Shown: piece after piece, positions 61,172 to 64,000 of the stretch
Position numbering within the stretch: position 1 is the first letter of the stretch
How the letters are laid out: each line of letters opens with the position of its first letter
From: Pseudomonas thermotolerans DSM 14292
GTDB lineage: Bacteria; Pseudomonadota; Gammaproteobacteria; Pseudomonadales; Pseudomonadaceae
Assembly (NCBI RefSeq): GCF_000364625.1
Contig: NZ_KB822611.1
Coordinates: 29,508-93,507 of the forward strand
Length of the DNA: 64,000 nucleotides
Direction of reading: 5' to 3'
Program-made: the position numbers and the translations under genes
Notes under the pieces: generated by a model
Database searches by the model: none
What the model was told of the DNA's origin: nothing
The model's input: only the letters and a program-made list of their open reading frames with translations

Positions 61172-62548
61172 TTAGTGCGACACTTCGCTGATCGACAGCA
61201 CCGCACTGGCGCCGTACAGCCCCGACGAGCCGGAGGAGCCGATACCGGTCGCCTCGACCCGCAGGTTGCGCTGCAGCCGGCTATCCAGCGGGGCCGAGCG
61301 GAACGGACCTTCCTGGTGATTCAGGGCCAGGAAGTCGCGAGGCTGGTCGGAGACGATCGCCATCAGCTGCGATGCCCCCACCGGCCCGGCGGCCCGCACC
61401 CGCCAGTGAGCGCGTGGGAGGCTCAACACCTGTCCGGCATGGAGGAAGTTCTCGCCGTCCAGCTGGTTGGGGAACAGCAGGTTGAAGGTCTTGCCATCGG
61501 AGCCGACGTGCAGCAGGTACAGGTAGCCGTCGCGGTTGGAACGCACCTGGATGTCCAGCGGGTCCTGTCCGACCACCAGGCGCTGCTGGGCCTGCAGCTC
61601 GACGCGGATGGCCGGCGAGGCCGCCTGGCGGATGTCCTCCAGGGTGGCGGCACTGCGCTGGGCCGGCTCGCTGACTCCGGCCTGAGGCTGCTCGGGCAGG
61701 GCCGCGAAGGACAAGGGCAGGCGCTCGTTGCCCTCGACGGTGATGCTCTGGTCGAAGCCCCAGTCATTCAGGAACTGCTGGGCGCAGCGCTGCAGCTCCT
61801 TGGCATCCAGGGCACCGCTGCCGTTGCTGTCAGCCGCGGGCTCGCTCAGGCAGCGCTCCCAGGCGCGGGTGGCGGCACTGCCACTGGTGGTGGCAAAGGC
61901 CACCTGATCCTCGCGGGCGGCGGCGATGTAAATCACGTTGCTGCCCTTCTGCCCGGCCTCATCGGCCAAGCCGCGCAGCGCCCGGCGCATGTTCACCGCC
62001 TGACCGCAGGTATAACCTGACCCACCGTCACTCTTGTAGAACTTGGGAACCGCCTGCTCCAGTCCCCGAGTCGAGCGGGTACTGGCCGCCCCGCCGGAGA
62101 AGCAGGAATCGTTGAACATCACCAACTGGCTGGCCTTGCGCCCCAGGCGCTGCAAGGCCGGCTCCAGCTCATGGTCCGGATACAGGCGCATGTCGTGCAG
62201 GAACATGCCCTCGACGCACTTCTGCGTGCCGCTGCCTCGCACCTGGGAACCGTGCCCCGAATAGTAGAGGAAGACCCGGTCGCCGGGCGCAATGCCAGCT
62301 TCCAGACGGCCCAGGGCTGCGGCCAGGCCGGCGACGGTGACCTGATCGTCCAGCAGCCGGTGAATGTTCGCCGCGGGCACGCCGATGCTCCGGGCGATGT
62401 TCTCGGCAAGCTGCACGTCACGGTCGATGCCAGGCAGGTTGGCGCTCGGCCGCTGGTAGTTGCCAATCCCCATGATCAGGGCATGATCGGCTGCTTGAGC
62501 AGTCCCCCAGCACAGCGTTGCCAGGGCCATGATCAAAAAGGCTCGCAT
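61172..62548 (-). CDS. Secreted caspase-like (C14) protein with EF-hand loop and DUF4384-type tail
   Basis: This 458-aa protein has a Sec signal (MRAFLIMALATLCWGTAQAA). The caspase-like domain (about 21-215) has DHALIMGIGNYQRPSANLPG, the catalytic His99 in FLYYSGHGSQ and Cys149 in VMFNDSCFSGG. Residues 240-251 (DSNGSGALDAKE) form a canonical EF-hand calcium loop. The C-terminal part (about 300-458) fits DUF4384 (PLDIQVRSNRDGYLYLLHVG; FNLLFPNQLDGENFLHAGQV). With both catalytic residues it may be an active cysteine peptidase in the periplasm or outside the cell, possibly calcium-controlled. Substrate unknown. It lies 24 bp after the CHAT gene. Confidence 0.85.
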   Translation of the reverse strand: MRAFLIMALATLCWGTAQAADHALIMGIGNYQRPSANLPGIDRDVQLAENIARSIGVPAANIHRLLDDQVTVAGLAAALGRLEAGIAPGDRVFLYYSGHGSQVRGSGTQKCVEGMFLHDMRLYPDHELEPALQRLGRKASQLVMFNDSCFSGGAASTRSTRGLEQAVPKFYKSDGGSGYTCGQAVNMRRALRGLADEAGQKGSNVIYIAAAREDQVAFATTSGSAATRAWERCLSEPAADSNGSGALDAKELQRCAQQFLNDWGFDQSITVEGNERLPLSFAALPEQPQAGVSEPAQRSAATLEDIRQAASPAIRVELQAQQRLVVGQDPLDIQVRSNRDGYLYLLHVGSDGKTFNLLFPNQLDGENFLHAGQVLSLPRAHWRVRAAGPVGASQLMAIVSDQPRDFLALNHQEGPFRSAPLDSRLQRNLRVEATGIGSSGSSGLYGASAVLSISEVSH

Positions 62549-62572
62549 CCTAGGTACTCCTCATCGTCGGGG

Positions 62573-64000
62573 TCACAGGGGGCCGGCCTGGCCGGCACTC
62601 AGGAAGGCCGCCCAGTAGTAGGGCGAGGCCGTGCGGGAGTCGCGCAGCAAGGCAAGCTGGGCATTGCGCAGCGCCTCGGCACGCGCGGAGCCCTTGGCCA
62701 GCTGCTGGTAGTAGCCGATCATCAGGTCGCGGGTAGCCTGGTCATCCACCTGCCAGAGGCTCATCACCACGGTCTGCGCGCCGGCCTGGAGCATCGCCCG
62801 GCGCAGGCCGAAGACGCCCTCGCCCTGGCGCACCTGCCCTACCCCCGTATCGCAGGCCGAGAGCACCACCAACTGGGTGCCGAGCAGATCCAGGGTGGAG
62901 GCCTCCAGGGCGGTGAGCACCCCGTCGTCCTGCCCGGAACGCAACTGGCTGACCCCGGCAAATACCAGTCCCGAGCGCAGCATGGGATTCTCCCCGGCCT
63001 CCTGCGGGTTGCCCAGGAAGAAGCCGTGGGTGGCGATGTGCAGAATGCGCGGACCAGCCACGGCCTTGATGCGGCTCTCGGTGGCCTCGGCGCCGCTGAT
63101 CTGCAAGGCGTCGGGCAGCAGTCCGGCCAGCGCCCGGGCCTCTTCCGCCGTGCCCGGCAGCTGGGAGAATTCAACGCGGGAAAAGTCCAGCGAGCGCAGT
63201 CCCGCCACCGGAGTCCCGCCCTGCAGGGAGAACTGCGGGTCGGCGACGATCAGCGCCGGGCCGCGCGGGGCGCTCTGCACGGAGTCGAGCAGGTCGCGGC
63301 CGCTGGTCAGATAGTTGAAGGTGTAGCGCTCCAGCTGATAGTGACCCTGTTCGTCGATCAGCGCGGCGAAGGGCAGCAGGTTCAGCACGCCATCCGGGGC
63401 TAGGTAGAGCTGGCGGACATTGTCGGCCTGGGCACGGACCGGCTGCAGCAGCTGCCTGTCCAGTTGCCGTGCCAGGAACCGCTGCGCGGGCAGGTCCGCG
63501 TCCAGTGCCTGGCGATAGCGGACGACCAGGTCATCCAGTTCCGCCGCGGGGCCCAGATCGACCAACCGGGGCGTGCGCCTGGCGCCTAGCACGTAGGCGG
63601 CATAGCGCTCCGCGCCCCACTGCCGGCCCTCAGCCTCGAGCGGTGCGAACGGCCGATAGCGAACCATCTCCACCAACAGCGCATCGCCGGGAACACGGCT
63701 GCGTACCCGCTCCACCAGATCCTTGCGCCAGCGCAGGTATTCCGCGGATATCTGCGTTTGCCCGGCAGCAGAGTAGGCGCGCGCGTCCTGTCTGCTGAGC
63801 ACCTGGATCGCCGCCTGCAGCTCGCGGATCTCCCAGTCCAGGTCGGCCAGCCCCTGCTCGCGGGCGGCCCGCTGCGCGGGATCGCTCGGCTGGCTGGTGG
63901 ACAGCTCCGCACGCTGGCGGTTGAAGGCTTCCAGCCGGGCCAGGAGATTCTGGCCGGCCTGGCCGGCGCCGGGCTGCGTGGCTCCGCTGCCGGACCGCAC
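62573..64000 (-). CDS. CHAT-domain protein, C-terminal part (cut by window edge)
   Basis: The last 475 residues are present; the N-terminus lies beyond 64000. A helical, coiled-coil-like start (about 20-110) is followed by a CHAT (caspase-HetF-associated-with-TPR) domain. His325 in ILHIATHGFF and Cys383 in VVLSACDTGVG are the expected catalytic pair, and GLRRAMLQAGAQTVVMSLWQ with VDDQATRDLMIGYYQ is a strong CHAT signature. Such proteins often carry TPR repeats ahead of CHAT, so TPRs are expected outside the window. It is co-transcribed with the caspase-like gene by spacing. Substrate unknown. Confidence 0.9.
   Translation of the reverse strand: MRSGSGATQPGAGQAGQNLLARLEAFNRQRAELSTSQPSDPAQRAAREQGLADLDWEIRELQAAIQVLSRQDARAYSAAGQTQISAEYLRWRKDLVERVRSRVPGDALLVEMVRYRPFAPLEAEGRQWGAERYAAYVLGARRTPRLVDLGPAAELDDLVVRYRQALDADLPAQRFLARQLDRQLLQPVRAQADNVRQLYLAPDGVLNLLPFAALIDEQGHYQLERYTFNYLTSGRDLLDSVQSAPRGPALIVADPQFSLQGGTPVAGLRSLDFSRVEFSQLPGTAEEARALAGLLPDALQISGAEATESRIKAVAGPRILHIATHGFFLGNPQEAGENPMLRSGLVFAGVSQLRSGQDDGVLTALEASTLDLLGTQLVVLSACDTGVGQVRQGEGVFGLRRAMLQAGAQTVVMSLWQVDDQATRDLMIGYYQQLAKGSARAEALRNAQLALLRDSRTASPYYWAAFLSAGQAGPL

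Follow-up and report, generated by a model that had tools for sequence, protein, structure and literature searches.

A candidate arginine-specific envelope metacaspase encoded with TPR-CHAT and OmpA-family proteins in Pseudomonas thermotolerans

Organization of the locus

The window analyzed here is a stretch of 64,000 nucleotides from Pseudomonas thermotolerans DSM 14292 (contig NZ_KB822611.1, positions 29,508 to 93,507), at the right-hand end of which two reverse-strand genes, separated by 24 bp, encode proteins of the caspase clan (Table 1). One is a Peptidase_C14 protein with a C-terminal DUF4384 domain (P0008, hereafter the C14-DUF4384 protein), and the other is a CHAT protein whose gene continues past the window end. 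An earlier note, made from the sequence alone, had described this pair, with intact His/Cys residues in each protein, and both the Pfam matches and the dyad residues bear out the description.

The part of the CHAT frame within the window matches the CHAT family at 2.1e-83. The whole protein, of 736 residues, matches both CHAT (6.3e-83) and TPR_2 (6.9e-08), the latter being the repeats for which the note had suggested looking beyond position 64,000. Its N-terminus, MKVLGWLLLVSSLLVGC, lies outside the window and by eye appears to be a signal sequence whose final residues, LVGC, form a lipobox. A third gene on the same strand, 59 bp 5' of the CHAT gene and likewise outside the window (P0002, L002:9351-9887), encodes an OmpA-family protein of 178 residues (OmpA match 7.1e-21) with a signal peptide. 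The three genes probably constitute one operon, of which the pair in the window is the downstream part. From export signals judged by eye in all three proteins, the products should be exported, with the periplasm or the outer membrane as their place of action.

An 11-pair stem, its tail short and rich in T, follows the C14-DUF4384 gene, where the note had placed a strong terminator shared by the pair. The stem is present, yet the scan found five such sites in 6 kb, as compared to 2.7 (standard deviation 1.7) in shuffled sequence, and a strong shared terminator is therefore plausible only.

Table 1. Positions of the predicted genes, domains, residues and motifs (window coordinates unless a locus is named).
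Feature	Position	Strand	Basis or remark
Predicted secreted C14 (metacaspase-like) protease gene, C-terminal DUF4384, 458 residues (P0008)	61172..62548	-	Pfam; signal peptide by eye
Predicted TPR-CHAT lipoprotein gene, 3' part (736 residues whole)	62573..64000	-	Remainder to L002:9291 = position 64783
Terminator-like stem-loop 3' of the C14 gene	61134..61158	-	Stem scan
DUF4384 domain, residues 329-403	61340..61564	-	Pfam
Catalytic His99 codon (YSGHG)	62252..62254	-	His in 18/18 aligned homologues
Catalytic Cys149 codon (DSC)	62102..62104	-	Cys in 18/18 aligned homologues
Putative processing site 1, TRSTRGL, residues 157-163	62060..62080	-	Low-confidence loop after catalytic Cys
Putative processing site 2, RRALRG, residues 188-193	61970..61987	-	Degenerate; most close homologues have a TR-type site
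EF-hand-like loop DSNGSGALDAKE, residues 240-251, between Cys233 and Cys255	61796..61831	-	Pattern match
CHAT His586 codon	63026..63028	-	His in 25/25
CHAT Cys644 codon (Cys383 of the earlier note)	62852..62854	-	Cys in 25/25
WD40-C14 genes beside C14-DUF4384 genes, up to three TRGF/TRGL	L250:3930-6635; L251:10019-13186; L253:190-3504; L258:10481-13675		

The C14-DUF4384 protein resembles metacaspases

P0008 matches Peptidase_C14 at 3.1e-15 and DUF4384 at 1.1e-18, so that the DUF4384 tail proposed in the note stands, while the secretion proposed with it depends on a signal peptide read by eye. The dyad of His99 and Cys149 is invariant in all 18 aligned C14-DUF4384 proteins; the conservation of the histidine was counted in this aligned set only, as the search expression missed it in most of the fresh proteins described below. 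Asp44, Ser97 and Asp147 are also invariant in the 18 proteins. From their spacing to the dyad, we equate these residues with Asp95, Ser156 and Asp211 of TbMCA2, which PMC4357240 places in a potential S1 pocket; the matching is our own, and the fourth pocket residue given there, Cys92, corresponds to an isoleucine in the C14-DUF4384 protein.

The model of the C14 protein (mean predicted local distance difference test score, pLDDT, 81.5) is matched best by metacaspases and by GSU0716, a C14 protein from bacteria (profile E 2e-26), although neither here nor for the CHAT protein does likeness of fold alone establish function. Model confidence falls below 50 at residues 153-161 and 182-190, where the putative processing sites lie. 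The metacaspases (C14B; for example Arabidopsis metacaspase 4, yeast Yca1 and TbMCA2) share with P0008 the caspase fold (Z 25.8 to 6w8r_B, 234 residues aligned, root-mean-square deviation 3.0), the His/Cys dyad and the acidic S1-pocket positions. Unlike them, P0008 has a signal peptide, a DUF4384 tail, an EF-hand-like loop between two cysteines, and an operon with OmpA and CHAT genes. The class features of caspase-fold dyad and acidic S1 pocket are thus present, while cleavage after Arg or Lys and dependence on Ca2+ are predicted.

The EF-hand-like loop, defined by the pattern D.[DN].[SNDG][GS].[LIV]...E, occurs in 15 of the 18 aligned and nine of ten fresh C14-DUF4384 proteins, as compared to one of 16 other C14 proteins; the background rate is 0.10 per 1000 residues in open reading frames of at least 300 residues, real and spurious frames pooled. 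In the 14 close C14-DUF4384 proteins the loop is flanked by two cysteines, a pattern that suits an oxidizing compartment. The protease would probably be under Ca2+ control via this loop.

The C-terminal motif of P0008, in which (Y/F)GA and E(V/I) enclose a hydrophobic stretch, has a similar counterpart at the end of the kinase-DUF4384 protein of locus L024, in L033 and in most close homologues.

An arginine motif recurs in the protease and its partners

The loop behind the catalytic cysteine carries a recurrent motif, TR[SG][LIVMF] in its strict form. When the 75 residues after the catalytic cysteine were searched in the 18 aligned proteins, 17 matches were found in 1350 residues (12/18 proteins), with none in 7822 residues elsewhere in the same proteins, taken from rows trimmed to start some 20 residues before the C14 domain. 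Shuffled Cys-loop windows gave a mean of 0.35 motifs and a maximum of 3 in 2000. Several close homologues carry two copies, approximately 35 residues apart, and P0008 has STRSTRGL followed by a degenerate second site.

The same T-R-[SG]-L core is found in the linkers of the OmpA partners, as GTRGLRNL in P0002, KTRSLGRN in genome G1018, KTRSLRNL in G1037 and ATRGLRNL in genus g305. Within 120 residues before the OmpA domain, TR[SG] is present in 10 of 14 partners (6/10 genera) as compared to two of 74 other OmpA-domain proteins (post hoc; Fisher 1.3e-8, and 1.3e-5 when counted by genus), and the strict motif in the same 10 of 14 as compared to one of 74. Four of the 14 partners come from distant loci (two from L023, one each from L021 and L102). 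The controls, from nine genomes, are 85 rows less seven partners, two that were not fetched and two that the local profile did not recover; the OmpA protein of L135 (G798) was counted as a partner instead of a control. Among CHAT proteins, 6 of 25 carry TR[SA]-hydrophobic ahead of the CHAT domain, and two more carry SRSL or QRSL.

Caspase-clan genes cluster with C14-DUF4384 genes

In another order of the same class, a two-row profile matched 16 genomes among 300. Twelve of these encode a close-type C14 domain together with DUF4384 (in G1024 the gene is split over two contig ends), and the other four hold a kinase-DUF4384 protein only (three) or a distant C14-DUF4384 protein (one). These 12 genomes and that of P. 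thermotolerans form the set of 13 in which co-location was assessed, with every CHAT and C14 match above the Pfam cut-off counted.

In 11 of the 13 genomes (7/8 genera), the C14-DUF4384 gene has another caspase-clan gene no more than 10 kb away, where chance predicts 0.115 and the maximum in 200,000 simulations was 4. In 8 of these 11 the partner is the sole other caspase-clan gene of the genome, and the two misses are G994, where the gene sits on an 8.3-kb contig, and the broken gene of G1024. The co-occurrence for which the note had proposed a search holds for caspase-clan partners in general, but the partner need not be CHAT: it is CHAT in five of the 13 genomes, one of which also has two C14 genes, and only C14 in six others. 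CHAT was accordingly rejected as the fixed partner. In G1003 the partner is a two-partner secretion (TPS) exoprotein that carries a C14 domain at its C-terminus. An OmpA gene is found nearby in 10 of the 14 close loci (that of P. thermotolerans, L088, L089, L092, L093/L094, L095, L096, L097, L098 and L099), and none nearby in L033, L087, L090 or L091.

These observations were followed up in new genomes of the phylum, with the predictions fixed before the search. Forty stretches came from 35 of 40 genomes, and nine loci encoded a C14-DUF4384 protein with a recognizable catalytic cysteine (9/10 such proteins). Some are related: L249 and L253 belong to one genome, with L250 in the same genus, and L251 and L258 share a genus; L244 resembles a Rhizobium locus already in the survey. 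A second caspase-clan gene was found within 10 kb in seven of the nine loci (4/6 genera). The motif was present in the Cys loop of five of the nine proteins (3/6 genera), where at least half had been predicted, and absent from 4833 residues elsewhere. In addition, L247, which falls outside the hold-out definition since its C14 and DUF4384 domains lie on separate open reading frames, has KTRGV in its OmpA linker.

In four of the fresh loci the partner is a WD40-C14 protein (Table 1). These four proteins hold nine motifs in 4128 residues, as compared to 18 in the 155,060 residues of 334 other open reading frames (post hoc). The sites lie within 250 residues before the C14 domain in L251, L253 and L258, and the single site of L250 is far upstream.

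A proposed processing mechanism and its alternatives

The export signals, the Cys pattern, the Arg-type S1 pocket and the shared Arg motif together point to an envelope protease that acts on its own chain as well as on its partners. We therefore favor, at a probability of about 0.5, a reading in which the C14-DUF4384 protein would be an Arg-specific metacaspase, exported and probably Ca2+-controlled, for which the TR[SG]-hydrophobic motif marks the cut sites both in itself and in envelope partners. The protein would be a metacaspase-like zymogen, activated probably when Ca2+ binds the EF-hand-like loop. It would then cut after the Arg of T-R-[SG]-hydrophobic, initially within the loop that follows its own catalytic cysteine. 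The next cut, in the OmpA partner's linker, would release or re-anchor the peptidoglycan-binding domain of that partner. In other lineages, where the site precedes the catalytic domain of a partner protease (WD40-C14 and some TPR-CHAT proteins), activation might be relayed. The CHAT protein of P. thermotolerans lacks the site, and could serve as a sensor, an upstream activator or a parallel protease. It is cleavage itself that we infer from the motif. For the protease cascade raised in the note, the shared putative cleavage motif offers indirect support, from which the local CHAT protein is exempt.

Several observations weigh against this reading. The strict Cys-loop motif is missing in 6 of the 18 aligned and 4 of the 9 fresh C14-DUF4384 proteins, and the second site of P0008 is degenerate. 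The motif in OmpA was noticed first and then tested on the same proteins, and in the only two OmpA linkers of the hold-out, where TR[SG] had been predicted for at least half, it was found once (TRGG) and the strict form not at all. This, and the lack of a motif in the local CHAT protein, are the principal weak points of the reading. TRGF is also present in the CHAT core, where its role appears to be structural. Pfam EF-hand scores fall under the cut-off (EF-hand_5 0.0066 in P0008). Furthermore, with the gene in 1 of 398 genomes of the genus (E 1e-20), the module has no conserved role there. Finally, at kinase-DUF4384/type VI secretion system (T6SS) loci with no C14-DUF4384 gene in view, the OmpA proteins carry KTRNF (L024) and VRGAG (L101), which raises the possibility that the motif serves another purpose.

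One such purpose, which we consider unlikely, is docking: the TR[SG]-hydrophobic motif would bind DUF4384 or the protease fold, and the module would be a scaffold for envelope assembly. The retention of a TR-type motif by the L024 OmpA protein, beside a kinase-DUF4384 gene, fits this proposal, as does the extent of OmpA conservation, which takes in a hydrophobic pattern upstream of the TR site and RN downstream of it. Yet the protease of L024 could be a C14 exoprotein also encoded there, and the placement of the motif after the catalytic cysteine and, in several partners, before protease domains is that of processing sites.

Just as improbable, in our estimate, is a reading in which the two proteases, though co-located, work independently of each other, for instance in envelope stress or turnover, the shared motif having no functional meaning. 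The absence of the motif from the local CHAT protein and the variety of partner types (CHAT, WD40-C14, TPS-C14 and other C14 proteins) are in keeping with independence; the strong co-location and the enrichment of the motif over controls argue against it.

Caspase-clan proteins act in defense systems, and residues 21-196 of P0008 match the PADLOC 'caspase' model (positions 3-130 of 453). A CHAT/caspase-type module for abortive infection or cell suicide is nonetheless very improbable, as this model is generic and PADLOC gives no match to the CHAT protein, the three proteins all look exported, the neighbors are qhp and presumed pel genes, and P0008 has no match in phage records and only five distant caspase-domain matches in viral contigs.

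Returning to the processing metacaspase, its reach may be wider than this locus. Tentatively, and with less confidence than for the protease itself, we suggest a previously unrecognized, recurrent envelope protease cascade, which would be Ca2+-gated, Arg-specific and self-activating at TR|[SG], would cut a peptidoglycan-binding OmpA protein and, in some lineages, the pro-regions of partner proteases with sensor-like WD40 or TPR parts, and would have as its matching inhibitors the serpins encoded beside such genes in three loci. Bacterial relatives of caspases are abundant, and to our knowledge few have a known natural substrate. Gene order and the shared motif here single out, within one operon, a candidate protease with its likely processing sites and a candidate substrate, so that substrate, specificity and Ca2+ control are directly testable. 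Searches of the open-licence PubMed Central (PMC) literature found DUF4384 in five papers, and no paper joining CHAT domain, caspase, bacteria and OmpA, none on the CHAT domain with two-partner secretion, and none on an operon of caspase-family and OmpA-family genes.

The CHAT protein and related systems

The dyad of His586 and Cys644 is invariant in all 25 CHAT proteins compared, and the conservation of catalytic residues on which the note had made its proposal depend therefore holds in both families. The closest structural matches to the CHAT model (mean pLDDT 74.6) are TPR-CHAT of Craspase, followed by separase. Csx29, the TPR-CHAT protein of the type III-E CRISPR Craspase, has the same TPR and CHAT fold (Z 27.4 to 7y9x_B, 418 residues aligned, root-mean-square deviation 5.6) and a His/Cys dyad in common with the CHAT protein described here. 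The resemblance to CRISPR TPR-CHAT suggested in the note thus extends to the fold, but not to the cytoplasmic location, as the present protein carries a lipobox, read by eye, and looks like an exported lipoprotein. Neither Cas7-11/gRAMP nor Csx30 was found among the right-hand neighbors scanned (OmpA, CcmF-like and qhp genes), to which the search for Cas7-11 was confined. Craspase cleavage sites, according to PMC11106740, are not conserved between orthologues, in contrast to the recurring motif of the present module. DdvA was also among the fold matches of the CHAT model; nothing relevant was found in a search of the literature on DdvA. In one scan, the top-scoring relatives of the CHAT protein were cyanobacterial (L025:5755-9375 and L026:3433-4632), with 43-44% identity over the C-terminal half.

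CHAT genes beside two-partner secretion genes, also mentioned in the note, are real in Caballeronia: in Caballeronia sp. M1242 (NZ_CP071131.1) a TPR-CHAT gene lies beside ShlB and hemagglutinin genes, within a T6SS locus that also encodes a DUF4384 protein. There the DUF4384 protein is a Ser/Thr kinase, and the T6SS and TPS genes are not seen at the P. thermotolerans locus.

Alphaproteobacterial pseudo-orthocaspases of the type trypsin-p20(QC)-DUF4384 have been described, as has the co-occurrence of DUF4384 with kinase domains (PMC6426788). They share with P0008 a p20 domain and a C-terminal DUF4384; unlike them, P0008 lacks a trypsin domain and keeps its HC dyad intact. OmpA was not found when the text of that paper was searched for the term. 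The fresh locus L244 encodes a protein of this trypsin-p20(QC)-DUF4384 type.

Other gene neighborhoods of the family were also recorded. Serpin genes adjoin C14-DUF4384 genes at L023:6699-15697, L107:3162-13012 and L244:3532-13372, including a Rhizobium beringeri plasmid, and are possibly inhibitors of the same proteases. A subtilase gene is present at the more distant locus L022. Exoproteins of TPS type, some 2000 residues long and with a C-terminal C14 domain that retains His and Cys, adjoin OmpA and DUF4384 proteins at L024:2-6268, L095:12677-18847 and L101:13050-18914. At L033, from Candidatus Ferrigenium straubiae, six consecutive genes (L033:5196-17337) encode C14-FGE, DUF4384, CHAT, CHAT, C14-DUF4384 and C14-PDZ-S41 proteins, five of them with caspase-clan domains and two with DUF4384.

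Distribution and genomic surroundings

The single genus genome with a C14-DUF4384 gene at E 1e-20 is that of P. thermotolerans itself, which rules out a pair common in the genus; a smaller, laxer search of the genus gave two further members, both weak matches to the C14 part only. Across the class, 10 of 369 genomes match at 1e-8, P. thermotolerans included. Its genome, of 3.75 Mb, holds one CHAT match and one C14 match. Given the phage and viral results above, a mobile or phage origin was rejected; the G+C content over the module (0.59-0.72 in 1-kb windows) is similar to that of its neighbors.

To one side of the module lies what we presume, from an earlier reading of the sequence and the order of pel genes, to be the pel operon; pel-specific NCBIfam families gave no match at this neighborhood, which is a weak check. 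To the other side, the contig extends 10 kb past the window end, and its last open reading frame has no Pfam match. The FhaC/ShlB or hemagglutinin genes for which the note had suggested looking there are absent among the genes scanned, the next gene being that of the OmpA-family protein. A ShlB search of the whole genome also gave no match, as did its controls, so that genome-wide absence cannot be deduced from it. Beyond the OmpA gene lie genes for a CcmF-like protein, QhpE, the beta subunit, a radical SAM maturase and the alpha subunit, which make up a quinohemoprotein amine dehydrogenase operon. In L002:10073-17668 these appear as the qhp genes (QhpE, beta, maturase, alpha) and then the CcmF/NrfE-like protein, which has 712 residues, scores far under the NCBIfam cut-offs and is perhaps a dedicated heme lyase.

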